DNA of 64,000 nucleotides from a virus, in the IMG/VR virus record IMGVR_UViG_3300036770_004917, positions 22,044 through 86,043 of that record; one strand, given 5' to 3'. Both the position numbers and the translations under genes were made by a program. This document shows positions 8,401 to 49,129 of the stretch, in pieces (the stretch's first letter is position 1; every line of letters starts with the position of its first letter). Under the pieces are notes generated by a model, which was not told the DNA's origin, did no database searches, and saw nothing but the letters and a program-made list of their open reading frames with translations.

Positions 8401-8693
8401 ACGAGCAAATCATCACCTATCGGCTGTGTTTTTTTGAGAAATATTCTGTTCCACTTGTCTCGTTCTTCTGGGGATGAGCCAGGAGACCATAGAAACTTAT
8501 GAAATTTAGAAAACTTAAGTTCTTGTATTGTCGGCGTTGTAGTAATGAAATGGAAAAACTTAACAAAATCAATTTGTCCATCCGGGGAAACGACGGCGCC
8601 ATCAAGCATCTGCTCACCATATGGCCGCAGAAGGTAATAGACCTTATTCCCTTCGTATGCCCCAACGAGAATGGCTTTTGTTTTTACAGCCAT
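5439..8693 (-). CDS. Polyvalent head protein with zincin-like (HExxH) domain, 1084 aa
   Basis: Starts at ATG 8693 with GGAG five bases upstream. Residues 1-150 form a distinct N-terminal segment ending in GIVGFKALGP (K155). This is followed by a DGDGDGFVDDG acidic loop (about 168-178) and RPFIPGFDF, a module shared with other head-operon proteins. A metallopeptidase-like motif VGVHESAHGLHF places HExxH at H549-H553, and a possible third ligand lies much later (EFVAESAVADF, about 1030). The rest is helical. The presence of HExxH suggests a zincin, possibly acting on host protein after injection or in capsid maturation; the substrate is unknown. Confidence 0.8.
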   Translation of the reverse strand: MAVKTKAILVGAYEGNKVYYLLRPYGEQMLDGAVVSPDGQIDFVKFFHFITTTPTIQELKFSKFHKFLWSPGSSPEERDKWNRIFLKKTQPIGDDLLVGAKIITSLGEEEVKRKDYRIRADEFRRKIASTGSLPMEKTVLSRKSVFNMRGIVGFKALGPLLSGKPSVDGDGDGFVDDGLPTMRPFIPGFDFLPDSSTNTSLRSITTRRADKAADRSATREEMLSAIDDVAGIVSRRHNDGKKIKTRKDAMDILKRLIPSFGLSPNDKARSSIEFLDSKADSDSLKPWELAYINQFLLMFGDDASRNEVTWRLRSMDPRIAAQGAGGYTSVPLGAKDWEFSQKFSDEGPRLLPKKNRKPLMTIGYSAETDKQNSRIYLLGLLMKQDKRNFTALSYAISKALRDDLNEMPDKSKIMNALQYKYGLDIEPGIASMSEIINQLLQGNNLIGAESQVPSSALGQDLLQTIWNVVNNSADAIAQVDSSFDKDLLVSRTLRAIQQGSIADILKSLRKTREAYQNSLNSPGLKMHLANGEELLDKWLTVNSKLVGVHESAHGLHFLRILESNRKKAQKLRDEYLQRYIDRQKEAGLTPETFKELQKQLPIEAFYTDVFKDEIREYAQNSPELLRRDILMLTTGGTAGRLIPDFQKLNGTSESLVGLTSTITSAIEIIKMQPPGVGRYDAARAMGAIGPFSVAGFMAKNPDSIGKSNFDDLVKQAKAEMVEQFIQQMESWLGQPIFMGDKPVALNGYMADLLNKMQASIPEVSGILGLDSILEFKAGDSITPAIASLLINPAIQKREQSARRNIMRGIRMFESDGSDSLTLGKVSPAIVLSTLGFPDIKGDDGNVMGGGRPEDVKPLIDALIGVSSLVRETEKQLQMGVQNIEQAMSSRSEPDAVDLPSSFGDISLSEFMEMPIDDVLEKLFTGIDDSLSAVANAINSGTMSSRLWENFEIMPKTGRTELSPLNQSEIKIINDIARKIGLPAGVQSSAGGTGLSSLPAQGYSSYQATLTDPTTWLGSTKWSIGEFVAESAVADFMGIPFSQIADSGLITRELTNEELQVLNKLMQWVFSGRLPSDRMSEAFNP

Positions 8694-18790: not shown

Positions 18791-18813
18791 TCCGGGCTCC
18801 AATCCCGACTGTA

Positions 18814-20537: not shown

Positions 20538-23500
20538 CTAATCATTCAGGGCAATCTCTACCTCGTCGCCGTTCTCATTTATCTTAGTAATTGTTCGTGA
20601 GTGAACTGGTTCTGCTGTTCTGTTGATGAATGTGGCCATGGCAGCCTTCGCCATTAGTTCTGCCATTTCGCCAAATAGGGCCATCCTTGCTTCGCCACCC
20701 CGCTCCACCTGTCTGTCTAGCGCAACATAAAGTGCTTCAATAATTTCGTCAATTTCGTCTTGCGTTAAATACAGGGCACCAGCATTGGTTCTCCTGTCGC
20801 TCAATTTCCCGGATTTCTGACGGGTCAATGTCTTCTTCAATAAGTTCAGGGCGGCAGAATGACGCGGGTCATCGGCCTTGCTTATCTCCCTATCAAGCGA
20901 ATTAAGGAGTTCGTTGAATTTCGTACGCTCTGCACGTATTTCTGCCCTGCCTTCCTTGACCGAAGACCGAGTGGAGCGAGTACTTTGCATAACCTCATTT
21001 TTGCGTGCAGCAAAATATGCATCAATGGCACGACCACGGATGCGTGGTACATATCTGGTTTTTGGAACAATGTCCATTTCGGGCATTGAGCGGACAAGGG
21101 GGGCCCCACGCCCTGGTGCCTTGTCAATGAATTCATCAGTCATTAATTCATTGCGCAATTTATTTAGATAATCACGAGTTCCAGATGCCCTATCAATACT
21201 ATTTTGTACATACTTTTTGCCAATTACGGAAGCACGCGGAGCAAATCCATTGGGTTTTCCATCCATCGCGTCAACGACAAAATCACTAGTCAGGTAATCA
21301 TCCAGAATGTCAATTGCGTCATCAATATTTCCGATACCAAAATCAATCCCAGCACCATCAGCATCCGCGAATAATTTCTTGACATCGTCCCATACCTGAG
21401 AGTGCCGATTGTCCTGATATCTGGTTGAATAAACCGAATCAAGTTCACTCTGGTACTCCCCTATGATGCTTCCAATTCCTGAAGCAATTCGCTGCCTGCG
21501 AACCCTGGCAGCCGTTGGGTTGGACGGGGTGCTGACGGGAGAATCCTCACCTCTAGTGGGCGATGGTGCTGTCGCTTTTGGTGGTGCAGTAATGTCTACT
21601 GGCAATTGGATTCCACTGCGAGTCGGGCGGACGGGAGACTGAACTCTTGATGACCGGACAGGAACAGGAGGCAAGTCCAGGTCTTCGTCCTCAAGACCTA
21701 GTTCTCGCCGCTTATCAATGGCATCAAGAAGTTTTTGACTTGAGGCCATAATGTCATCCCATATCAAGTTAAGGTCGTTGTCGGGTATTTCGCTAACTCC
21801 AGTCCTGCGCTTATCTGCTTCAGGCCTTAAGCGGCGCACTACGTCTGCTGCCTGCATGTGGTTTAGGTTGCGGAAATCATTGTAGAAGACACTTCTTGAC
21901 TCATTATCTAGAATATCTCTTGTTTTCATGCCAAGTGATTCCCAAGATTTTGCAAAATCCGGAGTTGCGGCAGTGCCAGAACCGTTGCCGTAAATAACAC
22001 TCTCGTAGTTATCACGACGCTTGAGGTTGTCTTGGACCATATTGAGTGCATCCATAACTTCGCGAGCCTGCTTGATGGCATCGCTTTGTCTCAGGCCCTT
22101 ATCCCCACCACCCTGCACCATGTTCTCTTTAATCCATGACAATTTGTCCAACGGTGCCATATCCGCATAGTCCGACGGTGCCATTTCTGCAAATGGTGTT
22201 CCTGCTTCGTCACCACCCTTTCTTGGCGCCAAAGACCCAACAGCAGAACGTGTTGGTGTGGAGAATTCCCTAATAGCATCCAACGACTTCCATGTTGCTA
22301 TTGTTTTAAATTTCTCGTTAGCAAGTGATTGCGCAACTTTCATATTTGAACCTTGCGCCCAATCAAGAAGTTTTTGGCGACGCTCTTTATTTAGCGAGTA
22401 GGGTGCCCCTGAGTTGAACAGTGAGTTCACGTCAGTTCCGTTTGTCTGAGGGAATTCGGTTGCATCAAATTTTAATTTTGGTGATGATGCTGCATGGTCA
22501 AGCAATGCAGCACTTGCCGTGCCATCACTCATATTCGATGAACGAAGAGCAGTTATACCATCACGAATAAACTCATACTCTGCTGGCGACATACTGAATG
22601 CAGTCTTGAGTCCACCACTCTGTCCACCAGCAATAAGTTTGTCATAGACATCAATCGCCGAAGTGATTTCGCGATTATTGGCAAAACGCTTTCTCAATTC
22701 TGCCAGTTCATCACGAACTATTCCAGCATCATTGTTGTCCAAAATAATGCTAATGGTATTTGATGGCGTTTTTGGAAGAGGACGATACATGGGTGCTATT
22801 CCATCTGGCAAAAGGCGCGCACTCCTAGAATCCTCTAGTGCATCAACGATGTTAATCGCGGCAGCAGCCTCTTGATTCGCAAATAGTTTCTTAGCAATTG
22901 AGTGAGCCCTGATTGGGTCAACGGGAGCAACCTCGTCCCTGGATGATGCCGAATAAGCACCTGCAAGATTCTTTATTAGAGATGTTTCCGTAGAACTTAG
23001 TTTCACTCTCCGGGCATCTCGTTCAAGGAGTTGGGCAAGCCCTGGGACAAGACCGCGACGGCTGCCATCTGGCGATACCGTATAACTGGAATCTTTATCA
23101 AGTTGATTTAGCGATGCGTCAACTGTCTTTCTGCTTTTAAGGAAAGTATCAATAACCTCATCATTCATTCCGCCATAGCGATAAATGCCGCCATTCCTGC
23201 CGATAATGAGTTCATTGCGGTTCCCATCGTATGCGACGAATGAAACATTGGAATTAGCGAACTTGCTTGAGCGACCAGGGAATAATTGTTCCGAATTTCG
23301 CAAATCAGTACCCATTTTGACTGTTGCCTTACTCGTTATCCGAGGGGATGCAACACTCCGAGTTGATGGGGATATCGCCAATACGGCTTGTTCGTCTAGT
23401 TCTGTAGCGGTTGTATTAATGACGGCTTGTTTTGCATCGGCCAGTTTTCTCTTGCGACGAACGGAGAGGATTGCATTTTCGAGTATGTCTGATGCAGATT

Positions 23501-26500
23501 TATTGATGAACGACCTATCTTCATCATCAATGTCTCTTCCATTGATGATTGAGTCAACTTCAAGCATGTCAATGTAGGAGCCAACCTGGTCGTTGCTTGC
23601 TAGTTGATTGAGTTCTTCTGCTAGTTCTGACGCTGAGGTGCGATTCATTCCTACTGGGCGAGACGTGCCACGTGGCCCGGTGTCAAATAATGACCGCTCC
23701 AATGCTGAGTCATATTCAAGAAGTGACAAGACATCCGCCCAGTCCTCTTCGGTAAGTCCAAACCTTTCGGCTGCATCGTTATAGCCTGATGCTTGCTTTT
23801 TCGCTTTTTTGTATGATGCTGAAGTGAGTGCTGCCTGACGCTCTTCGCGAACAAGGTGCTGGGCTGCAGCAAATATTTCATTTACTTCGCGTTCAATAGC
23901 CAATATTGACTCATCAAGAAATGCTGAACGATTTTCCATTTCGGCATTCGGCCATTCATAATTAACGGCATCAAATTGTGCATCTAGTTCTTTCAACTCA
24001 TCTCGTGAGTCATTCAGTTCATCTAGCAATCCACGAACTCTTCCGACTATTGCGTCAGTTGAACCTGCGCGGAAATCCTCTACCGTATCTCTCCATACAG
24101 CGGGTATCCGAGTACGTCCGCTACGGGTACTTGCTGGACGATTGGCATTAAGAAGTTGTTGGTCATCGGGGATAACTGCCGATATGGCATTACCACTCAC
24201 TAGGTCACGAAGGACCAATTTATTAACACCATCTCGCATTCGCCCAACCGAAGCAACCGAATATCTAGCGTCACCCTGTGATGCTAGGGATTGCATGAAG
24301 TTATCGGGGAGAATGTCACCAGGTTTGACATCGCTGCCAAATGATATATAAGACATTGAGCCATCACTATTTTGGGATGACAATGGACGACCGAGCGGCC
24401 TGAGTTCGCCACCGGCTCTCATTGCCGAAAGACCATTTATGTATTGTTCTTTCGCATTGTTGCCTGGGGCGATAGTGCTTCTCGTAATATTGAGCCATTC
24501 CCGAGAAGATGGACCTTCTTTGCGTTTTCCGGGAATCTTGGTTGCCCGGCGCTTTTGCTCCTGTTCTTGCCTGACTTGTTCTGGCGTCAATTTTTTCATG
24601 TCACCAGTAACTTTTTTGTCCCCAGTGACATTCCACTTTTTGCGATTCTTGCCGCGCTTGGAGCGTGTCGATGGGATGTTACTACCTTGTGCTGTATCGT
24701 CGATTTCGTCGCCCATTTGTGTTGCGATACTTTGTCCACGGACACTGCGCGTACCACCATATTCATACCCTTCGCCACGTGGTGTTGGTGCATCTGTTTC
24801 ACCCTCCACTCCACGGATAATGTCACCAATCGCGCTTTTTTCTGAATTTCCGAGAACACCAATGGATAGAGTTTTATCCTTCTTCGGGATTTCCTGAACT
24901 CCGGTGCGTCTAGCAAAATCAATCTCGTCTTTATCACTTATGGAATAAGCAAGAATGTCGGCGCCAGTTTCAGCATAGATACGCTCAATTGCATCTATTT
25001 GTTCTTCGGTAAACCGAACATCGCCAGCCTCGAAGCCAATATATGGCCTTATCTGCTCAAGTACTTTTTCGCCTCTTGAATTTATTTTTTCAGTAATATT
25101 CCCACGACTCATGCGGAATCGGACCACCCCATCGTCGTAGGCGTTAAGGTAGTCGTGTTCGTCTCCGTGCTCACCAATAACTGGATAAAGCGTCCCATCT
25201 GGATACAGCCATGCTCCAAAAAAGTCAGAATTAATAAACTCATCCACGGTCATGAACTTCATCTGTAGCGGTCGTTTTTCCGAACCCAAACGAGCAGAGT
25301 CGTCAGCCTTTGCCCTCATCCGTAGTTCATCACCAATTGCTGCCAATATGTTTGCCGCCCCCTCATCTGGCTTTCCTCTCATATCAACAATCGCTCGTAT
25401 GTCCTGCTGAAGGTCTCTCAGCATTTCTGGCGTCATTGATGGCGAACGCAGTGGATAATCGGCACGACCACTCAGGAATCTAATTTCCCTCAACGTAGCC
25501 CTATTCAACTTCCCGTTGTCTAGTGACTTTGTTATATCGTCAAGGAGTTTGACTAGGGCTGCATTATTAGCGAGGCGTTTTTCTTGCATTTGTTTTGTAA
25601 TTTGCTCACGCCTCTGCTGCATGTCTGCCTTCATGACGGCCAGGGCCCTTTGTTCTCTTGGGGAGATATATGAGCGAGTAGAGCGGGTAGAGGATGACGC
25701 AAGCCCATCCGTGCCAGTCGTTCTGCCACGCATTCTCTTGAACAGTCGGCCGATTCCGCCCGGTTCGCGCTCTGTCAGGGAATGGTCTCCCGAATTGGCA
25801 AAAATCTCTGGAGCAACGAGTCCGAAAGACCGAAGAAGTTTGCCATTTTTATTCATATCCATTATTTCTGACGCACTAAACCAACCGATTTCAGTGTTTT
25901 CCCCATCTCCGATTTTCACATCAGATAGGTCTCGTCTGCCAACTTCGTAGACATGGGTGTCGTATGCCCAATCCGGAGCACGTTGGTCACGGTAGGAATA
26001 AACCGGCAATAGCCCCTCCAAGTCACCGCCAACTTCCTCCCTAAATTCCGTCACCGCTGTCTCCATCGGAATTTCAGAACTGTCCTTATCCTTATGGACA
26101 CCACCAGGGAATGACCATTGTCCGCCCCCAGAACTCATCCATGGGGCACGTCTGGCTAGTAGGTATTCATAATCTCCGGATAGCCCCCTACGGCGTCGCA
26201 CCAAGGCGCCAGATGCGCCATACCGTCCATTGAATTTTTGGCCAGTAATGGAGAAGTAGTACCCCTCCCCAGTCTCCTGATTTGAGCCGCCACCTCTTGG
26301 TGCAAAGAATGGATATGCGGGTGGCTTTAGTTTGCCTGCACGAAGAAGGGAAACTTCCCTGCTGGATATTCTGTCCGCATAATAGACACCATCATCACTC
26401 TGCAGAATTTTGTATTTTTCCCACGGGCTTGCCGTCTTTTCTTCTTCTATTTCCGCAAGACCCTCGGCAATATCTTCATCTCGCGATAATTCACCTCGAC

Positions 26501-29500
26501 GGCGAGCAACTCTATTGCGGCGGGGGGATTGCTCATCGTTTGCTCGCATCGTTCGCGAGCGAGTACTAGGCATTCCCGTTGATGTCCGCGCATCCCTGTC
26601 CGAACTTAGTCTCGCCCATTCTGGGATGAAATCTGGTTTTTCTACGAAGTCTTCCGTTCCAAGGAATTCCTTTATTTCTTTGGCAGAAGGGGTCCTGGAT
26701 GTTAGGTCAAACTCACCGATGGGGAACAATGCCGGAATGGTATCGCCGCCATAATCACGGCGTTTGCGGCTGACTGATACTGCTGGAGCATCAGAAAGTT
26801 GCACTATGTTAGCAATGGCGTCAATTTGTTTGTCATTTAATCCTATTGCATCGATATTTACGTTTCCGGGGGGACCGAAAAGTAGGCGAACGAGGCCATC
26901 ATCGAATGCATCGCTGTATTCATACTCGGCATCATGTGACATAACCGGATAGATGCGGCCATCAGGGTAAATCCAGGCGCCATGCCAATGCGAGTTAGCA
27001 AAATCTTTTGCAGTAATAAAGTCGTTTGCAAGTACTCTTTCTTCGCCACCAAGTCTTTTTGGCCTATCTCCTATCGCGCGTTCAATCTGGCGAACAATTC
27101 TTTCTTTTTCTGGAGAGGGCTTAACTAGCGCATTCGTAAGAGAAAGAAGTGCTTTATTGGTTCTATCTTCGACAAAACCATAAAGTGGGCGAACGTTTTG
27201 CCTCATTGATGAATTGACGGCTTTGAGCACGTACTCCACGTACCCCCGTTCGCCATCTACCGTCCCTATGGGGCCAATTATTTCTCGCAATTCTTCTGTG
27301 CTCAGGTTTTCCACTGCGTCGCGAATCTGTTGCACTGCATTACGCAATTCGGCATTACTCTCCAGCATGGAGCGAGAATGTTCGTCCCCCAATTTTGCGA
27401 CTTTTGTCATTCTTTCCCGCGAACGTTCCCTATTTTCTTGGACTTTCCGCGTCTTTTCGTCTTCTGCGCTAGTTGTCGTGCTGCGCGTTGACAGGCTGTA
27501 CCTGGCGCTACGAGTACTTCCAGAATTTTCTTTGTTCCACTCGTTGGCAACTCTCTCAAAATATCCAGTTGCTGCATTCAGTGCGTCTGTGTCTGATTCT
27601 GTTCCGGTCCGTGCACTGCTCGCGAATTCAATAGATGCAATAGGTTCAACTTTTTCAAAAACCTGATATTCGCGTTCACTGCGGGGGAAACCAATTGGCC
27701 CTGCGTACATGGTGGCTTGCGACTTAGGAACCGCCGCCAAATAGACTCGGCTTGCTCCTTCATCATTTCTGTCACGAGCGTAACCGATACCAATTCTTAT
27801 ATCTGCTGGATAGTAAGAAAGATGTTCGCGGCCAGATTTTGCGTAATCATGGAATTGTTTATTATCGGCAAGCCATTGTTCTCTGGCTGCAATCGTCTTT
27901 TTTAATCGTTCAATCTGTTCAGTGTTTACACCAACTTTTTCAAATTCTTCAAGTTCGCTACGAGTTATTTCAAGGTCTTTTTCCGCCTGCTCGTAAGCGC
28001 GAATTAGCAGATTGCGACCAGCCTCATTTGAGCGCTTAGAATTTTTGGCACCACCGATAATTTCGGATGCCTCGCCAAAACCGGCAGTGAATTGGGGGTC
28101 CAGTACGCCGCCATCAAGTACGGGGACACCAGTATGCGTCAGGAATAAGACATCTTCGTTTTCAAAATCACCATACTGCTGACCGGGGTTCTCTGACTCG
28201 ACAGCACCAGTGATGAGGGCGCGACCTCTTTCGGCCAAGCGAACGAATTCTGGGTGGTCACGGAGGTTGTCCATGTCCACGTTTCGTGGAGTTTCTCCGC
28301 GCTCAAACTGCTCAATAACCCTAAGACGCTCGACAGCATCTTCTCGTAGTTCTATTAAATTATTTCTATAACGATTAAAGGCCTCTCGTTGCTCTTCTGG
28401 CGTTTGAACCTCACTAAGTTCTTCTTTGGTGAGATTGGTCATGCTTCCACGACTGCGCCTACCACTAACGCGTGGTTCCGCTACATCAAAATCTTTCCCT
28501 AGCCAATCGCCTGTTTCTTCCCAATGGGCAATTGCTTTTTCAATGGAATCTAGTTCTTTCCCCAATTGGGAGTAATAGCCCTCAAGCGCCGATTTCCCAA
28601 AAATCCTGCGATATTCAGGGTCTTCCTGGCGTAGTGATGTTCGTTTCCGTGTTGACCGGAGGCCATCAATGGATACGCCATTGTCGTTCCTCTTGGTAAC
28701 CCTGGGAGCATCAACTGAATCAAGCAACTCATTTCTAATTAGAATTCCGTCAAGAGAATCCCCCGCCAGGCGGGCAAGCATGTCATCTGATGCTTCGGTC
28801 AATGGGGTCTGGCGCACAGAACGACTTGACCTACTGGAGCGAGTACTTGGTGGGTCAAGTTTGTCAAGCAACTCGTCTATAGGGCCGTCGTAGTCTCTGA
28901 TTGTTTCTTCAAAGCGTCCCCTTGCGCGTTCTGGTTTGTCTGGCGAGGCAACAATACCAAGCCAACGTGCAGCAATCTCCATTAGGTTTGACCGAATAAA
29001 GACTTCCCTATCTTCATCGGTGAGGCTCTCTAGGCCCGGTAATTCTCGTAATTTATTCCAGAAATCCTTATCGCGAGCAAGCGAAATCAGGGCAAGGATG
29101 TTTCCCCACTCACTATGTCTGTCAAATGTATTTCCTAGAGCGAAATGACCCATGAGGTCATGGAGCATTGCAAGTGGTGAGACTAAGTAATTGCTTAGTT
29201 CGCCATGGACCTCCGGCACTGCATGTGGGTCTGACATGAGTTGTAGATATCCATGGATAAAAAAGTCATTATCTATCAGGCGCTTGGCAACTTTTGCACG
29301 TTCATTGCGCGGCACTTTTTCCAATTCCGGAATAATATAATGCTTAAGAAGCATCGCCGCTATCTCGTTAGTGCGTACACTTAATGCCACATTTACGGAT
29401 GGCAACTGTTCTTTTAGATGTTCTCTGTATTTTTTGTTAAAAAATTCATGGAAGGGGAGTTCTTCTCCATCATCGAAGGGGCGCGCAAGCCGAGGTTTTT

Positions 29501-30506
29501 TCCTACCTTCAGGGTCTTTGATAAAAATGGAATCAAAGAATTTATGCCAGCGTCCATACTTCTTGCGTGGCTCTACCTCGTCAAAAATTGACAGAATCGT
29601 CTCGCTGTCTGGAATCTCCGTATTGTGGTAATCCCTATTGTCAGGGAGCAAACGGCGCAAGACCGTATTCGTTGGCATTCTCAGCGAGATTGTTCCATCG
29701 TCGTGTACTCGGAGTTCTGACCCCTCGATGATGTCATCAATGGTCATGTCTATATCTGGGTGCGACCCAAAACCATCAATGAGTTTTTCCCGCCTAAGAA
29801 TGCCGGAACGTTCACGACGACCCATTGATTGCCAGTCGTCTCGCATGGCTTGGAGATTCATTATCAAGTTGGAAACTTGATTTTTAATGCGTTTCTTTTG
29901 GTCATCCGTCCAATCGCCGGACTCCATGAGGCGCTTCTCTAATCCATTACGAATATCCACCCAGAACTGACTGTCGCTAATCGCCTCGTCGCCGTCTGTT
30001 CCTTTTTTGGGCCTCTGTGTCGGCTCAAGGATGTCTCCTAGGGGGATTCGTTCTCTGATGCTTCGTGTACTTCGTACTACGCGACCGACATTCGGACCCG
30101 GGCGCACGGACGTATCAATTGCGCCATCTACTTCGGCGTTGCTTGCAATACCAACGCTTGAGTCTTTATCAATTCTTGAAACAATGCTCTGCAGTTTTTC
30201 CTGGCTAAATGAGATATCGGTATTGCCAGCACGCCGCTTGCGCTCAATCTCTTCAGAGTCGCCCTGGGTAAGTTTTGCAACAGACTTTGCAATACTGCGT
30301 GGAACGATGAATCTAGGAATAATGGGTCTTTCAAGGGGTAATCCCTCAAAAACAATCCCATCGTTATCGGCGTCTACTCGTCCTGTGACGTCAACGAACG
30401 ACATCCCAGGCGGCGCAGCACGAAGGCCACCACCAATACGCTGACCGAGTTTTCCGCCCAGTGCTTTAGATTCGGCGTCTAGCCCTAACTCAGCAAAGCC
30501 GGGCAC
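20538..30506 (-). CDS. Giant polyvalent protein with Nudix, ART-like and duplicated unknown domains (3322 aa)
   Basis: GTG start two bases after the protease stop. In order: GLRAAPPG...DADNDG...RPIIPRF (about 28-65), homologous to part of the pentapeptide protein; a helical domain with HDLMGHFALGNTFDRHSEWG (about 449-468), similar as I recall to an HD..GH..G..F..HGE element of phage polyvalent proteins; a possible ADP-ribosyltransferase-like segment (FLTHTG, about 790); two copies of a GAW(I/L)YPDG..YPV domain (about 1180 and 1770); a Nudix domain between them (FPGG at 1466-1469, then EFREEVG near 1490); a KTSC-like segment (about 2430); and long helical regions. About thirteen STRSxR-type motifs lie between these parts. 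Likely packaged and injected; functions inferred. Confidence 0.88.
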   Translation of the reverse strand: MPGFAELGLDAESKALGGKLGQRIGGGLRAAPPGMSFVDVTGRVDADNDGIVFEGLPLERPIIPRFIVPRSIAKSVAKLTQGDSEEIERKRRAGNTDISFSQEKLQSIVSRIDKDSSVGIASNAEVDGAIDTSVRPGPNVGRVVRSTRSIRERIPLGDILEPTQRPKKGTDGDEAISDSQFWVDIRNGLEKRLMESGDWTDDQKKRIKNQVSNLIMNLQAMRDDWQSMGRRERSGILRREKLIDGFGSHPDIDMTIDDIIEGSELRVHDDGTISLRMPTNTVLRRLLPDNRDYHNTEIPDSETILSIFDEVEPRKKYGRWHKFFDSIFIKDPEGRKKPRLARPFDDGEELPFHEFFNKKYREHLKEQLPSVNVALSVRTNEIAAMLLKHYIIPELEKVPRNERAKVAKRLIDNDFFIHGYLQLMSDPHAVPEVHGELSNYLVSPLAMLHDLMGHFALGNTFDRHSEWGNILALISLARDKDFWNKLRELPGLESLTDEDREVFIRSNLMEIAARWLGIVASPDKPERARGRFEETIRDYDGPIDELLDKLDPPSTRSSRSSRSVRQTPLTEASDDMLARLAGDSLDGILIRNELLDSVDAPRVTKRNDNGVSIDGLRSTRKRTSLRQEDPEYRRIFGKSALEGYYSQLGKELDSIEKAIAHWEETGDWLGKDFDVAEPRVSGRRSRGSMTNLTKEELSEVQTPEEQREAFNRYRNNLIELREDAVERLRVIEQFERGETPRNVDMDNLRDHPEFVRLAERGRALITGAVESENPGQQYGDFENEDVLFLTHTGVPVLDGGVLDPQFTAGFGEASEIIGGAKNSKRSNEAGRNLLIRAYEQAEKDLEITRSELEEFEKVGVNTEQIERLKKTIAAREQWLADNKQFHDYAKSGREHLSYYPADIRIGIGYARDRNDEGASRVYLAAVPKSQATMYAGPIGFPRSEREYQVFEKVEPIASIEFASSARTGTESDTDALNAATGYFERVANEWNKENSGSTRSARYSLSTRSTTTSAEDEKTRKVQENRERSRERMTKVAKLGDEHSRSMLESNAELRNAVQQIRDAVENLSTEELREIIGPIGTVDGERGYVEYVLKAVNSSMRQNVRPLYGFVEDRTNKALLSLTNALVKPSPEKERIVRQIERAIGDRPKRLGGEERVLANDFITAKDFANSHWHGAWIYPDGRIYPVMSHDAEYEYSDAFDDGLVRLLFGPPGNVNIDAIGLNDKQIDAIANIVQLSDAPAVSVSRKRRDYGGDTIPALFPIGEFDLTSRTPSAKEIKEFLGTEDFVEKPDFIPEWARLSSDRDARTSTGMPSTRSRTMRANDEQSPRRNRVARRRGELSRDEDIAEGLAEIEEEKTASPWEKYKILQSDDGVYYADRISSREVSLLRAGKLKPPAYPFFAPRGGGSNQETGEGYYFSITGQKFNGRYGASGALVRRRRGLSGDYEYLLARRAPWMSSGGGQWSFPGGVHKDKDSSEIPMETAVTEFREEVGGDLEGLLPVYSYRDQRAPDWAYDTHVYEVGRRDLSDVKIGDGENTEIGWFSASEIMDMNKNGKLLRSFGLVAPEIFANSGDHSLTEREPGGIGRLFKRMRGRTTGTDGLASSSTRSTRSYISPREQRALAVMKADMQQRREQITKQMQEKRLANNAALVKLLDDITKSLDNGKLNRATLREIRFLSGRADYPLRSPSMTPEMLRDLQQDIRAIVDMRGKPDEGAANILAAIGDELRMRAKADDSARLGSEKRPLQMKFMTVDEFINSDFFGAWLYPDGTLYPVIGEHGDEHDYLNAYDDGVVRFRMSRGNITEKINSRGEKVLEQIRPYIGFEAGDVRFTEEQIDAIERIYAETGADILAYSISDKDEIDFARRTGVQEIPKKDKTLSIGVLGNSEKSAIGDIIRGVEGETDAPTPRGEGYEYGGTRSVRGQSIATQMGDEIDDTAQGSNIPSTRSKRGKNRKKWNVTGDKKVTGDMKKLTPEQVRQEQEQKRRATKIPGKRKEGPSSREWLNITRSTIAPGNNAKEQYINGLSAMRAGGELRPLGRPLSSQNSDGSMSYISFGSDVKPGDILPDNFMQSLASQGDARYSVASVGRMRDGVNKLVLRDLVSGNAISAVIPDDQQLLNANRPASTRSGRTRIPAVWRDTVEDFRAGSTDAIVGRVRGLLDELNDSRDELKELDAQFDAVNYEWPNAEMENRSAFLDESILAIEREVNEIFAAAQHLVREERQAALTSASYKKAKKQASGYNDAAERFGLTEEDWADVLSLLEYDSALERSLFDTGPRGTSRPVGMNRTSASELAEELNQLASNDQVGSYIDMLEVDSIINGRDIDDEDRSFINKSASDILENAILSVRRKRKLADAKQAVINTTATELDEQAVLAISPSTRSVASPRITSKATVKMGTDLRNSEQLFPGRSSKFANSNVSFVAYDGNRNELIIGRNGGIYRYGGMNDEVIDTFLKSRKTVDASLNQLDKDSSYTVSPDGSRRGLVPGLAQLLERDARRVKLSSTETSLIKNLAGAYSASSRDEVAPVDPIRAHSIAKKLFANQEAAAAINIVDALEDSRSARLLPDGIAPMYRPLPKTPSNTISIILDNNDAGIVRDELAELRKRFANNREITSAIDVYDKLIAGGQSGGLKTAFSMSPAEYEFIRDGITALRSSNMSDGTASAALLDHAASSPKLKFDATEFPQTNGTDVNSLFNSGAPYSLNKERRQKLLDWAQGSNMKVAQSLANEKFKTIATWKSLDAIREFSTPTRSAVGSLAPRKGGDEAGTPFAEMAPSDYADMAPLDKLSWIKENMVQGGGDKGLRQSDAIKQAREVMDALNMVQDNLKRRDNYESVIYGNGSGTAATPDFAKSWESLGMKTRDILDNESRSVFYNDFRNLNHMQAADVVRRLRPEADKRRTGVSEIPDNDLNLIWDDIMASSQKLLDAIDKRRELGLEDEDLDLPPVPVRSSRVQSPVRPTRSGIQLPVDITAPPKATAPSPTRGEDSPVSTPSNPTAARVRRQRIASGIGSIIGEYQSELDSVYSTRYQDNRHSQVWDDVKKLFADADGAGIDFGIGNIDDAIDILDDYLTSDFVVDAMDGKPNGFAPRASVIGKKYVQNSIDRASGTRDYLNKLRNELMTDEFIDKAPGRGAPLVRSMPEMDIVPKTRYVPRIRGRAIDAYFAARKNEVMQSTRSTRSSVKEGRAEIRAERTKFNELLNSLDREISKADDPRHSAALNLLKKTLTRQKSGKLSDRRTNAGALYLTQDEIDEIIEALYVALDRQVERGGEARMALFGEMAELMAKAAMATFINRTAEPVHSRTITKINENGDEVEIALND

Positions 30507-36170: not shown

Positions 36171-36995
36171 ATGGCAACCGCCAAGAAGCAACCCCAAACT
36201 AAAACGAATGGAGAGAACGAAGTGGACAGCGAGCCAATCGCAGCAACCAACTATCTACAAGAGCGCATTGCGGAGGATTCCTATTACTCCGAGCGACGCG
36301 CAAAAGATGAACAAAAGCGCAAAGAAGACCTACATCGTCTTCTCGTCGACCTGAGCGAGCCCTTCCCTCCCGAAGTTGAGCGGGAACTGAGAAAGGGTGG
36401 AACATCCCTGACGTACATTCCCGTTAGTGAGGTGATTACTCGTCTGAATCGCTGCTTCGGGGTGACTGGATGGTCGTCGGAAATCATACGATGCGAGCGT
36501 GACCCGCTTGACCCAGACTTTATTGTTGCTCACGTTCGGCTGAGCACCCACAGTGGCGATATGTACCCGAATGTAACCAAGGATGGTTTCGGTGGGCAGA
36601 AAATCAAGCGAACCAAGGCTGGCGAAATTGTTGACCTTGGAGACGAGTTCAAGGGCGCTGTTTCCGATGCCCTGAAGAAGGCTGCCCAGCAATTCGGCGT
36701 TGCCCTGTATCTCGCTCGTTCTGACGAGGCACTCAGTATTGAAATTGAGCAAGATATGGCTCAATCACGCCCACAGATTGACCCCAAAGTCGTTGCACTC
36801 TGGGAGCAGTTCCGTACATTGAGTGGCACCTTTGGTGCTGAGCAAAAAGCACAGTTGGGTCAGTTCTGGAACGAGTACGCCAATGGGGCCCCCAAGCCAA
36901 CATTGGAGACAGCGACGCCACAAATTCTCATGGCGCTTATTGAAGAATGCACGAGGATTAGTTTCCCCGGCTCGCAAGTCATCGTTGAAGAATAA
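36171..36995 (+). CDS. Rad52/22-family single-strand annealing protein
   Basis: 274 aa, ATG with AAAGGA upstream. The central part LTYIPVSEVITRLNRCFGVTGW, then the beta strands IVAHVRLSTHSGDMY, and EFKGAVSDALKKAAQQFGVALYLAR match the Rad52/22 DNA-repair family. Such proteins coat single-stranded DNA and anneal complementary strands in recombination-dependent replication. The N-terminal 45 residues are charged and variable; the C-terminal 80 residues may bind a partner. The next gene is a RecB-like nuclease, the usual pairing of exonuclease with annealing protein. Confidence 0.85.
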   Translation: MATAKKQPQTKTNGENEVDSEPIAATNYLQERIAEDSYYSERRAKDEQKRKEDLHRLLVDLSEPFPPEVERELRKGGTSLTYIPVSEVITRLNRCFGVTGWSSEIIRCERDPLDPDFIVAHVRLSTHSGDMYPNVTKDGFGGQKIKRTKAGEIVDLGDEFKGAVSDALKKAAQQFGVALYLARSDEALSIEIEQDMAQSRPQIDPKVVALWEQFRTLSGTFGAEQKAQLGQFWNEYANGAPKPTLETATPQILMALIEECTRISFPGSQVIVEE

Positions 36996-36998
36996 TCC

Positions 36999-37787
36999 AT
37001 GAACCAACCCGATGGCATCGGGGGGCCGCCATACACGCCTCCCCCATATCTATCCCCTTCGTCAATGGGCACATTTCGGCAGTGTCCGCAGAAATTCAAG
37101 TTCAATAAAATTGATGGGATTCCTGACCGACCGAGCGAGGCAACGCTCCTTGGAAACTTTGTCCATGAAATATTGGAGGAGTTCTATGCTCAGCCAATTG
37201 ATGAGCGGTCGATTGCTTCGGCAAAGGTATTGGCTGCGGAGGTTTGGGCAAAGTCGGAGTGGGAAAAGCGGATTGAGGGATTCGTAAAGCCCGAGCAGCA
37301 CCGCCGCTTTCGTTGGAGTGCATGGTGGTGCTTGGAGAATCTGTGGAAGATTGAGAATCCAAAGTCAATTGAACCAATTGGCATTGAACGCGAGGTCAAT
37401 GGGCTACTCGGCAGTGCGACCGTAAAGGGCTTTATTGACAGGTACGAGCGCATCGGTGATGGCACGATATGTATTTCCGACTACAAGACCGGCAAGACTC
37501 CAAGTAAGTCATGGGTTGCAGACAAGTTTGTTCAGTTGCGAATCTACGCTGCCCTCATGTCGCAAGATGTGCCAGATGTTGGCCAACTCAAGTTGCTTTA
37601 CCTAAAGGACGGTGTATCATTCTCCTACACGATTAATGAGGATAATAATCAAGAAATCATCAACTACGTAGATGAAACTTATGCAAGCGTCCAATCGGCG
37701 TGCCAAAGTGGAGATTTCCCATATGTCCGGTCACGACTCTGCGACTTTTGTGCCTATAAATCAATATGCCCAGGATGGAAAAAATGA
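36999..37787 (+). CDS. RecB-like PD-(D/E)XK exonuclease with Fe-S cysteines
   Basis: 262 aa. LSPSSMGTFRQCPQKFKF (C29) starts the fold. GNFVHEILEEF supplies the early His/Glu region, GFIDRYE and ISDYKTGK the catalytic Asp and Asp-x-Lys, and LCDFCAYKSICPGW (C248, C251, C257) completes a probable four-cysteine Fe-S site as in AddB/Cas4-type nucleases. It would resect DNA ends for the adjacent annealing protein. It ends in an ATGA overlap with the next gene. Confidence 0.88.
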   Translation: MNQPDGIGGPPYTPPPYLSPSSMGTFRQCPQKFKFNKIDGIPDRPSEATLLGNFVHEILEEFYAQPIDERSIASAKVLAAEVWAKSEWEKRIEGFVKPEQHRRFRWSAWWCLENLWKIENPKSIEPIGIEREVNGLLGSATVKGFIDRYERIGDGTICISDYKTGKTPSKSWVADKFVQLRIYAALMSQDVPDVGQLKLLYLKDGVSFSYTINEDNNQEIINYVDETYASVQSACQSGDFPYVRSRLCDFCAYKSICPGWKK

Positions 37788-44570: not shown

Positions 44571-46496
44571 ATGGCCCGCATCACCGATGACTTCGTACGC
44601 TCTCATTCAGCACAAACACCCCCGTGGGGATTCAATGGAATGGGTGAAATTGTTTTCCTCCGCACCTATAGCCGCAAAAAAGAAAACGGCGATACAGAAA
44701 CTTGGGGAGAGACAATCCAGCGTGTCATCAATGGCGCAATTGATATTGGCGTTCCCTACACGCAAGATGAGGCTGAGCGCCTATTTGACCATCTTTACAA
44801 CTTGCGTTGTTCTTTCTCTGGTCGGTCCCTATGGCAACTCGGAACACCGCTTACTCAGAAGTTCTCAGGAACTAGCCTCAATAACTGCTATTTCGTAAAT
44901 ATTGAAGCCATTGAAGACTTTGAACTTCTCTTTGATTACCTAATGCTTGGAGGCGGAGTCGGCTTCTCTGTGGAGCGAGCAAAGATTCACGACCTCCCTA
45001 AGGTGAAGGGTGGCGTAGCAATCACCCACGAGCGTTCAAACGACGCAGACATCATCGTTCCAGATAGCCGTCAAGGATGGCGTCGTCTCCTTCACGCCGT
45101 ACTGAAGTCATACTTTGAGACTGGCAAGTCCTTCTCGTACTCAACGATTCTTATCCGTGAATACGGAGCACCCCTAAAGACATTCGGAGGAACCGCATCC
45201 GGCCCTGGCGCACTCATTGATGGCGTCGCCGACATTTGTAAAGTTCTGGAGAATCGCGTTGGCAAGAAGTTGCGTTCAATTGACGTTCTGGATATTTGCA
45301 ACATCATTGGTCGCATTGTCGTATCTGGCTCTTCTCGCCGTTCGGCGCAGATTGCCATTGGTGACCCCGACGACGTTCTATTCCTTCGCGCCAAGAACTG
45401 GGGAACGGGCAATATCCCCGCATGGCGAGCCAACTCCAACAACAGCATTTATGCTGATGCATACGAGGAGATTCTCCCCGAATTGTGGCGTGGTTATGAC
45501 GGTAGCGGTGAGCCATATGGTCTCGTCAACCGTCGCCTTGCCCGTAAGTATGGACGCATTGGGCAGTCAAAGCCAGACCCTACGATTGAGGGCTATAACC
45601 CATGCGCCGAGATTGCTCTGGGTGACGGTGAGTCATGCAACCTATCAACAATCTTTCTGCCGAACGTGGAATCATTGAAGCAGTTCAAGGATATCTCGTA
45701 CCTCCTATACAAGACGCAGAAGCAAATCACTCGTATGAACTACCCATACGAAAAGACCACGAAGATTGTTCAGAAGAATGCCCGTCTTGGTCAGTCAATT
45801 ACTGGCATTCTTCAATGCCCTTCTGACAAGATTGCTTGGCTGTCGCCTGCATACGAATACCTGGAAGCGCTGGATAAGGAGTATTCCGCAGAACACGGAA
45901 TGCCAACATCGGTGCGCCTGACAACCGTACAGCCCTCCGGAACACTCTCCTTGCTGCCAGGAGTAACTCCAGGTATTCACCCAGCATTTGCTCAGTATTA
46001 CATTCGTCGTGTTCGCTTCGGCTCGTCCGACCCATTGGTAGATGCCTGCCGTAAGCGTGGCTACAAGGTTCAGTACGATGTCGGCATTGACGGCAGGGAA
46101 GACCACACACGCTTTGTTGTTGAGTTCCCATGCGAGTCGCCTGAGGGTTCTGTTCTCGCCAAGGACATGACTGCGGTTGCTCAGTTGGAGTGGGTCAAGA
46201 AGATGCAGACCGAGTGGGCAGACAATGCTGTCTCCGTAACGGTTTACTACCGCAAGGAAGAACTTTCAGAAATCAAGGAATGGCTGTCAAAGAACTACGA
46301 CGATGCCGTGAAGTCTGTTTCGTTCCTCCTTCATTCGGACCACAACTTCCCGCTTCCCCCCTATGAGGAAATCAGCAAGGAAGCATATGAGAAGATGCTG
46401 GACAAGATTGATTTCACCATTCCAATTCACAGACCAGCATTTGATGGTGCGGTGGAACTTGATGACTGCGCTACTGGGGCTTGCCCAATCAAGTAG
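44571..46496 (+). CDS. Adenosylcobalamin-dependent (class II) ribonucleoside-triphosphate reductase
   Basis: 641 aa, somewhat shorter than the roughly 740-residue Lactobacillus-type monomeric enzyme. Active-site residues: C106 in LNNCYF and C356 in ESCNLS as the redox pair, and C345-E347 in NPCAE as thiyl radical cysteine and acid. VQPSGTLSLLPGVTPGIHP is the phosphate-binding loop. The C-terminus CATGACPIK (C633, C638) is the swinging reductant pair. It makes dNTPs independent of oxygen but needs host cobalamin. Confidence 0.95.
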   Translation: MARITDDFVRSHSAQTPPWGFNGMGEIVFLRTYSRKKENGDTETWGETIQRVINGAIDIGVPYTQDEAERLFDHLYNLRCSFSGRSLWQLGTPLTQKFSGTSLNNCYFVNIEAIEDFELLFDYLMLGGGVGFSVERAKIHDLPKVKGGVAITHERSNDADIIVPDSRQGWRRLLHAVLKSYFETGKSFSYSTILIREYGAPLKTFGGTASGPGALIDGVADICKVLENRVGKKLRSIDVLDICNIIGRIVVSGSSRRSAQIAIGDPDDVLFLRAKNWGTGNIPAWRANSNNSIYADAYEEILPELWRGYDGSGEPYGLVNRRLARKYGRIGQSKPDPTIEGYNPCAEIALGDGESCNLSTIFLPNVESLKQFKDISYLLYKTQKQITRMNYPYEKTTKIVQKNARLGQSITGILQCPSDKIAWLSPAYEYLEALDKEYSAEHGMPTSVRLTTVQPSGTLSLLPGVTPGIHPAFAQYYIRRVRFGSSDPLVDACRKRGYKVQYDVGIDGREDHTRFVVEFPCESPEGSVLAKDMTAVAQLEWVKKMQTEWADNAVSVTVYYRKEELSEIKEWLSKNYDDAVKSVSFLLHSDHNFPLPPYEEISKEAYEKMLDKIDFTIPIHRPAFDGAVELDDCATGACPIK

Positions 46497-46751: not shown

Positions 46752-46977
46752 TGCCGAGTATGTTCTTAGCGGATTGCGCAGGGAATATGAATCGCTATCC
46801 AACGATGTATTTGCGCTCAGGAACGATGTTTACTTTCTTACCCAGCAATTGCAAAAAGAAATTACCTTCAGCGAAAAACTGATTTCGGTAATACAAAACA
46901 GCATGCCCCATGGGGTTAGTAAGGACATACTGGACGCGATAATGCTTGAATTCGGAAGAGCGAAGAATACTCCATGA
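46741..46977 (+). CDS. Coiled-coil hypothetical protein, 78 aa
   Basis: Charged helical protein (SGLRREYESLSNDVFALRNDVYFLTQQLQKEI) beginning with SSDAEY. The stop overlaps the next start as ATGA. First of a run of small overlapping genes; it lacks the DEIERLR motif of the following ones. Confidence 0.65.
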   Translation: MSSDAEYVLSGLRREYESLSNDVFALRNDVYFLTQQLQKEITFSEKLISVIQNSMPHGVSKDILDAIMLEFGRAKNTP

Positions 46978-47330
46978 CGCCTGGGACAGGAAAATTCTTT
47001 CCCAATAGCAATAAACGGCATGAACAGGCAAGCGATGTTGTCGCTGAACTTCGTGATTGGGCTGAAATCATCGACCGGGTCAACGATTCTGGCACTGCCG
47101 CAGTAACGATGATTAGCGGTGCTGTTCATCGCGAAGCGGCTGACGAGATTGAGCGCCTTCAGGATGAGCGGGATAACTGGAAAAAGGTTGCAGAACTATT
47201 CAGTAACGCCTACACTACTGACGAGTCGGGCCAGTTTGCAATCTCCAATGGCTCCGATTTGTTTAGGGCGGTAATGGCGTATGAGAGGGCTTTGCGCGAT
47301 GAGCGAAATGAGTTTCCAGGAAAAACTTGA
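46974..47330 (+). CDS. DEIERL-motif small protein, 118 aa
   Basis: ATGA-coupled start. Middle EAADEIERLQDERDNWKK is the first copy of the coiled-coil motif that recurs in the array to the right. The N-terminal region (SDVVAELRDWAEII) is helical. Function unknown. Confidence 0.65.
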   Translation: MTPGTGKFFPNSNKRHEQASDVVAELRDWAEIIDRVNDSGTAAVTMISGAVHREAADEIERLQDERDNWKKVAELFSNAYTTDESGQFAISNGSDLFRAVMAYERALRDERNEFPGKT

Positions 47331-47592
47331 GGAAATTTGGCGTCTTTTAGCCGAGGCATACGAGCACTATTTCTCATACGAATCGCACTGCAAGTCCGAT
47401 GAGGGTGCTGTTTCTGTGAACTACCCAACATTCTTTGAAATGCGTGATGGCAAGACCGAGCCAACAGTGTCTGTCTACTCATACTGCCTTGGTCCAAATC
47501 GCAATCATTATTTCTCAAATATTGATGAGGCCTTGACAGAAGTCCGTAAATGGCATAAAAAGGAAATGGAATATGTTCCGACAGAAGAGTGA
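47299..47592 (+). CDS. Hypothetical protein, 97 aa
   Basis: ATG 47299 with GAGGG upstream; 47308 is possible. Has an N-terminal helix (FQEKLEEIWRLLAEAYEHYF) and a beta-type C-terminal half (PTVSVYSYCLGPNRNHYFSNIDEALTEV). It interrupts the DEIERL series and is unrelated to it. Not recognised. Confidence 0.68.
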   Translation: MSEMSFQEKLEEIWRLLAEAYEHYFSYESHCKSDEGAVSVNYPTFFEMRDGKTEPTVSVYSYCLGPNRNHYFSNIDEALTEVRKWHKKEMEYVPTEE

Positions 47593-47854
47593 TGACATCG
47601 TGACCCGACTACTGGATTTCACCCCGTTGAATGACGCTGACCTAGCGAGACTCATGCTGGAAGCCGCCGACGAGATTGAGCGACTGCGAGCCGAGGTCGT
47701 TTCTATCCATACGGCGACACATCAAGCGATGTGGTTAGACACCATTATCCCCATTGCCGAAGCGTGCGGTGTCGGCGTTTCAGATGAAGATGGCTACCCA
47801 CGCCACCAATTCCAAATGGTAGAAGAAATCATAAAGGCGGTGCGTGGTGAGTGA
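47573..47854 (+). CDS. DEIERLR array member 1, 93 aa
   Basis: Starts MFRQKSDDIVTRLL, carries LEAADEIERLRAEV and ends AVRGE. The end VRGE-stop overlaps the next start in the repeated junction sequence. Helical; no enzymatic motif. Confidence 0.62.
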   Translation: MFRQKSDDIVTRLLDFTPLNDADLARLMLEAADEIERLRAEVVSIHTATHQAMWLDTIIPIAEACGVGVSDEDGYPRHQFQMVEEIIKAVRGE

Positions 47855-48047
47855 CGACTGGGTAGACGACTTGATTGAAGAAAAGCACAAGTTGGAAATA
47901 GAAGTCAGCCGCAAATATGACGAGATTCAACGACTGCGTGAAGCAGGCGACTGGATGTGGGAAGCCATGTCACGCCACGACAACACCAGAGAATGCCCAC
48001 AATGCCAAGACATGATTCGACTATGGAAAGAGGTGCGTGGTGAGTGA
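47847..48047 (+). CDS. DEIERLR array member 2, 66 aa
   Basis: GTG 47847 in the junction repeat (GTG 47844 is in frame too). SDDWVDDLIEEKHKLE, then YDEIQRLREAGDWMW, then a CPQC pair, ending KEVRGE. Shares repeat DNA with its neighbours. Function unknown. Confidence 0.6.
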   Translation: MSDDWVDDLIEEKHKLEIEVSRKYDEIQRLREAGDWMWEAMSRHDNTRECPQCQDMIRLWKEVRGE

Positions 48048-48333
48048 CGACATCGTGACCCGACCGTGTTGCGATGTTCGCCCGTGTGGTTGCGCCGATG
48101 CGCGCATGGTGATTGACCATCTGCACGCCGAGATTGAACGACTGCGTGCCGAGAATCAGCGTCTGAAGGAAGCACGGTTTGACCTTCAAGCGTCCGACTT
48201 CCATTGCTGGGTCTGTGCGGATTTTCTCCCTACCGCACGGCGACCAACCGACATTCATCGACTCAAAGAGGAAGAGAAGTCTGTGCCTGAAGAGTATGAA
48301 GTATTTGAGCACAAGGAAGGCGGTGAATGGTGA
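48040..48333 (+). CDS. DEIERLR array member 3, Cys-rich, 97 aa
   Basis: GTG in the junction repeat with GAGG six bases upstream. Opens SDDIVTRPCCDVRPCGC, has HAEIERLRAENQRLKEAR and then FHCWVCADFLP. The cysteines could form one or two zinc sites flanking the coiled coil. Confidence 0.6.
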   Translation: MSDDIVTRPCCDVRPCGCADARMVIDHLHAEIERLRAENQRLKEARFDLQASDFHCWVCADFLPTARRPTDIHRLKEEEKSVPEEYEVFEHKEGGEW

Positions 48334-48527
48334 TTGACGACATCATGACCCGACTGAAAGAAATGCTCGACGGACCCGTGCCATTCGTTATCGGCAGAGA
48401 GGACATCCGAGAAGCAGCCGACGAGATTGAACGACTGCGTAAAGCAGGCGATGCCCTCGCTCATGGTATTCGTACAGGACAATGGGATGATGCGCTAGAC
48501 GCATGGACGGAGGTACGTGGTGAGTGA
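48330..48527 (+). CDS. DEIERLR array member 4, 65 aa
   Basis: GTG 48330 chosen by analogy with the other junctions; ATG 48327 is equally possible. IDDIMTRLKEML, REAADEIERLRKAGDALAHG and a terminal TEVRGE match members 1 and 2. Confidence 0.58.
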   Translation: MIDDIMTRLKEMLDGPVPFVIGREDIREAADEIERLRKAGDALAHGIRTGQWDDALDAWTEVRGE

Positions 48528-48774
48528 CGACATCGTGGCCCAAATAGGGGTGGAACTGTCATGGATTGAAAAACATGGCACGGAGGCATTGAACAATTCA
48601 GACCATGCCGCCCTGCTGGTTGCGTTGCGTGACGAGATTGAACGACTACGAGCAGAAGTCAACCTTTGGATGGGTGCTGCCGAACGATTCGCGGAGTCCG
48701 ACCCCAAGTTTGAGGCGTTTGGGTTCTATTTCCGTGCGAGAGCAAAGGCAGGTCTTGATGCGCCGAACAGTTGA
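48520..48774 (+). CDS. DEIERLR array member 5, 84 aa
   Basis: GTG in the third full junction repeat. SDDIVAQIGVELSWIEKHG is followed by RDEIERLRAEVNLWMGAAERF and a different C-terminus. Last member with the coiled-coil repeat. Confidence 0.6.
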   Translation: MSDDIVAQIGVELSWIEKHGTEALNNSDHAALLVALRDEIERLRAEVNLWMGAAERFAESDPKFEAFGFYFRARAKAGLDAPNS

Positions 48775-48958
48775 TGACGGATACAGCGAGACGGAGTGCT
48801 GCGCTCGCATCGACTGCGACCTTGAGGTAGTGCGCCCGGGCAAGGTCCAATGCCGTGGAGAATATGACTCATTAGGCTGTCCTCACACGGTCGAAGAACT
48901 TGTCAGCACAATGAACAAGACCATCAAAAACATACCAAAGGGGGCACACAATGATTGA
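48758..48958 (+). CDS. Cys-rich small protein, 66 aa
   Basis: ATG 48758 with AGGCAGG upstream, overlapping the preceding stop by 17 bases. ECCARIDCDLEVV, KVQCRGEY and LGCPHTVEEL suggest a zinc site. Too short for confident family assignment. Confidence 0.58.
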   Translation: MRRTVDDGYSETECCARIDCDLEVVRPGKVQCRGEYDSLGCPHTVEELVSTMNKTIKNIPKGAHND

Positions 48959-49053: not shown

Positions 49054-49129
49054 TGGCGAGTAATTCAGTGGATAGAATAGCGGTTTCCTAAACCGTCTGC
49101 CGCAGGTTCGAATCCTGCCTCGCCAGCCA
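49054..49129 (+). tRNA. tRNA-Arg (anticodon CCU)
   Basis: Full cloverleaf: acceptor TGGCGAG/CTCGCCA, D-arm ATTC-AGTGGATA-GAAT, anticodon arm GCGGT-TTCCTAA-ACCGT with CCT, T-arm GCAGG-TTCGAAT-CCTGC, discriminator G and an encoded CCA (49127-49129). It reads AGG, a codon likely rare in the host but used in this phage. Confidence 0.93.

Follow-up and report, generated by a model that had tools for sequence, protein, structure and literature searches.

The stretch of DNA that we analysed (the window, 64 kb in length) comprises positions 22044-86043 of an 86,043-base contig from an uncultivated tailed phage. An array of six small genes, u1 to u6, confirmed by the list of open reading frames (ORFs) and by a repeat search, lies between the gene for a class II ribonucleotide reductase (RNR; 44571-46493) and a single tRNA gene (49054-49129). 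The same contig also codes for a terminase, RuvC and a PAPS-reductase-like gene, and carries on the plus strand a gene for a Rad52/Rad22-type single-strand annealing protein (36171-36995; PF04098, E = 2e-15), which is a candidate agent of the exchanges described below. This gene is adjoined by that of a PD-(D/E)XK exonuclease (36999-37787, plus strand; PF12705, E = 4e-34). Two giant ORFs on the minus strand, at 8684-18802 (3372 aa) and 20538-30506 (3322 aa), contain many STRSSR-like repeats, and a NUDIX domain in the latter is the only domain recognized in the two.

The units of the array, all on the plus strand, follow a common plan in which a ribosome site and start codon lead into box S (DDIVTRLR, 24 nt), followed by a first variable segment (the N module), box K (AADEIERLR, 27 nt), and a second variable segment (the C module). 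In u1 (46974-47330, 118 aa), a decayed box S (SDVVAELR) and a long N segment precede box K (AADEIERLQ, 47136-47162) and the C module, WKKVAELF..YTTDESGQF..SDLFRAVMAYERALR. Gene u2 (47573-47854, 93 aa; box S 47591-47614, box K 47663-47689) ends in AVRGE, and u3 (47844-48047) has a degenerate box S, a box K reading KYDEIQRLR (47913-47939), a CxxC motif in its C module and the ending EVRGE. The remaining units are u4 (48037-48333; box S 48046-48069, box K 48121-48147), u5 (48327-48527; box S 48336-48359, box K 48414-48440), with the C module GDALAHGIRTGQWDDALDAWTEVRGE, and u6 (48517-48774; box S 48526-48549, box K 48625-48651). Box S is partly decayed in u1, u3 and u6 of the window. Two further plus-strand genes belong to the segment, these being gene x (47299-47592), an ORF inside the array that has neither box S nor box K, and a short orphan gene (48758-48958, 66 aa) that overlaps the end of u6.

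The first-pass annotation had described this locus as six copies of a coiled-coil repeat alternating with at least three copies of a gene-junction repeat, in which VRGE and a stop codon overlap GTG-AGT-GAC. All six coil copies are found, one in each of the units: five lie within one mismatch of GACGAGATTGAACGACTGCG (at 47669, 47919, 48127, 48420 and 48631), a pattern that gave no match in 100 shuffles, while the copy in u1 (47142) has diverged further. At 48148, the heptad pattern of u4 carries on and produces a partial seventh copy. The junction repeat is exact at 47844, 48037 and 48517 and diverged at 48327, the corresponding plus-strand segments being 47830-47868 (u2/u3), 48023-48061 (u3/u4), 48503-48541 (u5/u6) and, for the diverged copy, 48313-48351 (u4/u5); at 47591, u2 has box S without the VRGE overlap. 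At the u2/u3 junction, the ribosome site and GTG start overlap the AVRGE-stop by 8 nt, and in GCGGTGCGTGGTGAGTGACGAC one reading frame gives AVRGE and the stop codon, while in another the following gene has its ribosome site and V-S-D-D start. Overlaps of 1-11 nt, often with the same sequence, are present in 28 of the 41 neighbouring unit pairs in the collected set described below. The VRGE or RGE at the ends of these proteins is therefore largely a by-product, arising mostly where GGNGCGTGGTGAGTGA, which holds the ribosome site and start of the following gene, is translated. The repeats of the proposed array are real, but the VRGE ending is no separate motif, and gene x, which lacks the repeats, lies between u1 and u2. 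Outside the repeats, the proteins of the window do differ from one another, as had been stated.

Searching IMG/VR with a u5-like alignment, a u1-like alignment and a DNA pattern for DDIVTRLR, and then extracting the units, yielded 160 distinct units from 118 loci (denoted here by L numbers). The coil was not specified in the DDIVTRLR pattern, and yet 83 of the 123 ORFs that it matched have a strict coil 11-46 residues downstream, with nearly all of the others carrying a coil variant. Modules are mostly 10-50 aa in length, the median being 19 aa for N modules and about 37 aa for C modules. CxxC-like motifs occur in the N or C module of 41 of the 160 units, which suggests small zinc modules in some of them. 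Some units, among them L174:4004-4357, L184:4001-4471 and L211:1146-1511, carry two coil boxes in a single frame (S-N-K-C-K-C), an arrangement suggestive of the addition of another C module. A DNA search of the array against cultured phages gave no match, and protein searches of cultured phages returned only weak ones. The best of these, in Ruegeria phage RpAliso (L315:2501-2662) and Paracoccus phage Pkon1 (L316:805-1365), are single genes of the same plan that are annotated as hypothetical; the RpAliso gene is RPALISO_222, and this phage infects Ruegeria pomeroyi DSS-3. No unit was found in a protein search of plasmids, or in two scans of 84,980 bacterial and archaeal species genomes with a gapped pattern that recovers 21 of the fetched loci and is strict in demanding a GAC-first codon and limited spacing.

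Close relatives of the phage were fetched through the conserved genes that neighbour the array, permitting the comparison with related phages that the first-pass annotation had proposed. A fixed order and number of units, which that annotation had named as grounds for rejecting its interpretation, is not kept at this locus: the window and eight relatives have 6, 2, 1, 1, 3, 1, 0, 0 and 0 units, and relatives in which RNR is 86-99% identical contain 0 to 3 units with different pairings of N and C modules. The L005 locus (reductase 99% identical) is colinear with the window up to 47304 and then differs, the order being u1, with its N module, the orphan gene, and a u5-like unit that combines a C module matching that of u5 with a non-matching N module; gene x is absent. 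In L009 (reductase 91% identical), a u1-like unit (12322-12597) joins the C module of u1 to another N module; after it come a homologue of gene x, a u5-like unit whose N module is different again, and one more unit. Relatives of the u1 C module are also present in L168, L177 and L307. The short orphan gene, which in L005 stands directly after u1 and before the u5-like unit, is part of the rearranging segment. A single, different unit is present in each of L007 and L008 and a fused one in L087; L063 has a remnant, and L017 and L025 have none. L063:5263-5484 and L087:8786-9112 are the same gene, with an in-frame insert of an N module and box K in L087 only, and the insert resembles a module captured or lost inside another gene. 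The identity of the tRNA at the array edge also varies among close relatives, being Arg (CCT) in the window, L063, L086 and L087, and Asn (GTT) in L004, L005, L007 and L009 (coordinates include L005:13200-13275, L009:12002-12077 and L063:5526-5601); in L009 the tRNA gene sits on the opposite side of the units. The tRNA may be a further exchange point.

Across the collected units, N and C modules are decoupled. We grouped C modules by a rule combining identity and coverage, raw local scores having chained unrelated coils together. Among 46 pairs of N modules with at least 90% identity, the C module is also similar in only 7, and among 14 pairs of C modules at this level the N module is also similar in 3. 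More than 10 different C modules follow the N module GQLPIC, and the u5 C module is preceded by at least 10 N modules, that of u5 included. In base-level alignments, the DNA flanking box K is nearly 100% identical on one side and about 25% identical, the level of chance, on the other (L198/L274, L212/L284, L171/L178, L186/L312, L240/L241, L224/L261 and window u4/L164). In the last of these pairs, the u4 C module is shared with L164:3667 as a 158-nt island of 97% DNA identity and the N module of L164 is unrelated; likewise, the u6 C module recurs in L190:4001 after an unrelated N module. The cleanest breakpoint lies within one contig, L276, where the units at 8720 and 9847 have C modules that are 100% identical and N modules that are unrelated. 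These observations bear out the earlier idea that variable parts are swapped within a frame of fixed start and coil segments, and they refine it, in that each gene holds two independent variable modules, one between start and coil and the other after the coil. They also bear on an alternative, namely that the units arose by ordinary tandem duplication followed by fast divergence, with the paralogues keeping only the coiled-coil motif. Tandem units with a common coil and diverged remainders are what such a history would produce, but contigs that are unrelated elsewhere can share an N module, at DNA identities of up to 100%, and have C modules with no relation to each other, or share the C module and have unrelated N modules. 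Because divergence cannot make one half of a gene identical and leave the other unrelated, duplication is, artefacts aside, already refuted, and we consider it very improbable.

The limits of the exchanged segments can be seen in 77 shared DNA islands, counted in register between contigs having at most 1 kb of similarity in their 3-kb context. Box S and box K bound 45 of these islands, another 24 begin at box K and extend into the C module or as far as its end, and 1 reaches from box S to the stop codon; these pairs are not independent of one another, and, with boxes present in every unit, islands tend by construction to end inside boxes, so that the informative part is the unrelated sequence beyond the box. 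About half of the shared C islands end short of the stop codon, and C modules may thus be composite. In several pairs, L198/L274 and L202/L270 among them, the only blastn match between loci of many kilobases is the module itself (108 and 110 nt in these two, about 97% identical at the DNA level); scattered similarity is present elsewhere in the contigs of L212/L284, L240/L241 and L224/L261. Exchange extends to phages that share little or no other sequence at the locus.

Nearly all of these sequences are metagenome contigs and the boxes are repeated, which raises the question of whether the swapped combinations are chimeric joins made by assemblers at 24-27-nt repeats. N islands of about 100 nt with unrelated DNA on both sides, however, would need two false joins each time. 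Moreover, combinations recur in independent samples: L191, L192 and L193 come from three metagenomes, the N and C combination of u6 recurs in L086, and the L289/L292 and L166/L167 combinations are likewise found across samples. The diverged pair formed by u1 and its L009 counterpart, with C modules about 64-70% identical, cannot be an assembly join, and the unit plan, as distinct from the swap, is also present in the cultured phages RpAliso and Pkon1. Taken together, these points leave scarcely any likelihood that the combinations are artefacts of assembly.

Box S is conserved as DNA, given that its rare synonymous codons are kept across unrelated N modules. The exact sequence GATGACATTGTGACCCGACTACGG is present in 44 of the 160 units. 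When each of the 110 N families is represented once, GTG occurs in 97, CGA in 81 and CTA in 66, figures that are raised somewhat by a search pattern requiring GTN, CGN and CTN, although the third base was left free; elsewhere in the same genes, these codons account for 28%, 13% and 12% of their amino acid, respectively. In box K, the first glutamate is GAG (133) and the second is GAA (123). Such likeness at the DNA level is expected if the boxes recombine with each other, or if box S has a further role as DNA or RNA. The end of the box S consensus, ACCCGACTACGGG, forms a small inverted repeat (CCCG-ACTA-CGGG) when G comes next. A further explanation is that box S is the site of a dedicated site-specific recombinase, or an RNA or translation element, and that exchange is directed by an enzyme rather than by simple annealing. 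Conservation of box S DNA well beyond its protein, with GTG, CGA and CTA far above their usage, would fit this proposal, as would the left edges of the N islands, which lie at the first bases of box S. On the other hand, the second junction is box K, which differs in sequence except for the RLR codons, and repeated homologous exchange accounts equally well for the conservation. We regard a dedicated site or element of this kind as unlikely. The same synonymous conservation over unrelated N modules also argues against duplication and divergence.

We conclude, with a probability of about 0.8, that this tandem array of small accessory phage genes is a two-slot cassette in which modules are swapped at boxes S and K. 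By recombining inside box S or box K, phages would exchange a whole gene or only its N or C module, and an open frame would always be kept after exchange because both boxes are conserved in sequence and in frame; in arrays, the ribosome site and start of each following gene overlap the preceding stop codon. Exchange could be carried out by phage annealing recombinases of the Rad52, RecT or Erf type acting on homologies of 24-27 nt, and annealing at the boxes seems to us the likeliest, as well as the simplest, mechanism because the phage has genes for both an exonuclease and an annealing protein of the Rad52 type. For Red-beta, the shortest segment able to pair has been put at 23-27 nt (PMC3945230). 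In a recombinase search at the arrays that covered annealing families, such proteins were recognized in 10 of 33 array-bearing records (Rad52 in 2, RecT in 4 and ERF in 4), the Rad52 carriers being the window phage and the contig of L005, and RecT or ERF being present in 8 further contigs. Most array-bearing contigs have no recognized annealing protein, and most of these are fragments. More doubtful, in our estimation, is the extension of the cassette idea in which box S is a dedicated DNA-level exchange signal and N and C modules are drawn from a shared environmental pool, so that pool modules would assemble new small host-directed proteins across unrelated phages. Were this so, the arrays would be a viral counterpart of combinatorial receptor assembly.

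An AlphaFold model of u5 built with 40 sequences (mean pLDDT 87) has helices at residues 6-15, corresponding to box S, 24-50, in which box K runs into the C module, and 54-63; the model of u1 is weaker (pLDDT 74). The modelling gives a small helical bundle in which boxes S and K are predicted to be helices, and the two boxes may form a helical hairpin scaffold bearing a variable loop and a variable tail. Fold searches with two models against solved and viral predicted structures returned no significant match. Comparisons of the window genes with Pfam, PHROGs and NCBIfam, and of 40 aligned units with PHROGs and Pfam, gave coiled-coil noise only. None of the 40 units matched a PADLOC profile, but these profiles describe defence proteins only and the lack of matches says little about counter-defence. 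The suggestion that the units serve in anti-defence or host takeover thus receives no support from defence, Pfam, PHROG, NCBIfam or fold matches. The position, variability and dispensability of the array nevertheless make accessory host interaction the likeliest function, a tentative assignment that we would put at somewhat less than even odds, with the unit proteins perhaps binding host factors as accessory partners or inhibiting them, and evolving under diversifying selection. A coiled-coil scaffold or structural role would agree with the predicted helical fold and its coil. The array, however, lies outside the structural operon, in a region of metabolism genes and small ORFs near RNR, the tRNA and PAPS reductase; it is missing or reduced to a remnant in close relatives, and the diversity of C modules is too great for a single structural role. 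We therefore think it improbable that these are structural proteins.

Neither the peptide nor a comparable system of boxes turned up in searches of the open literature, although several known systems are similar in part. Ea22, encoded by a single gene in the exo-xis region of lambdoid phages, is a small early protein of 182 aa in which a short N-terminal part and a coiled coil precede a C-terminal domain that is completely different from phage to phage (PMC10834534, PMC7093339), and all four Ea22 proteins compared end in K/RGE over unrelated C-termini (PMC7093339). The units resemble Ea22 in this succession of parts, a likeness of plan for which we claim no homology, and many share the RGE ending. 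Ea22 differs in being longer and in having no tandem array, no reported repeated DNA boxes and no separate exchange of N modules, and hmmscan of the window genes and of 40 units against Pfam gave no Ead_Ea22 match. Other marks of the Ead/Ea22-like family are a prolysogenic function and a tetrameric state. In T4-type phages, the mobile PeSL cassettes are intergenic stem-loops that serve as promoter and terminator (Arbiol et al. 2010; Comeau et al. 2014; cited in PMC4503421), and, as in the present arrays, a short repeated DNA with an expression signal drives the shuffling of small phage genes. PeSLs move whole genes, whereas the repeats described here lie in the reading frame and parts of proteins are exchanged. 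In place of an intergenic promoter and stem-loop terminator, these repeats consist of a ribosome site with its start and of coil coding sequence; there is no intergenic space from u2 to u6, and the start repeat overlaps the stop codon of the preceding gene.

Phage mosaicism is well known between genes, and domain mosaicism has been mapped by a sequence-based analysis requiring shared fragments of 50 aa, with hotspots in large structural, lysis and replication proteins such as tail spikes, tail fibres and endolysins, and an unseen reservoir is expected in accessory proteins and those of unknown function (PMC10684548). In our arrays, parts of proteins are likewise shuffled between unrelated phages, non-homologous proteins share a homologous fragment, and exchange across unrelated phages is recent; the difference is that the modules are mostly shorter than such fragments and both halves of the protein are exchanged. 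Boxes of this length could also be substrates for the relaxed homologous recombination that Rad52-like phage recombinases perform (PMC3945230), and the window phage does code for an annealing protein, but that process underlies general genome mosaicism and has no dedicated repeat boxes. The system is therefore a variant of known phage mosaicism, the unusual part being its boxed, two-slot form, with mosaicism taking place within both halves of proteins that are only about 75 aa long, at boxes of the working length of annealing recombinases. It provides a concrete source for some of the many small phage genes whose function is unknown, since recombination of modules can create further ones. Such an array is, in effect, a natural combinatorial library of small proteins, in which the boxes predict the points of recombination and the modules are small enough to be tested singly or as libraries.
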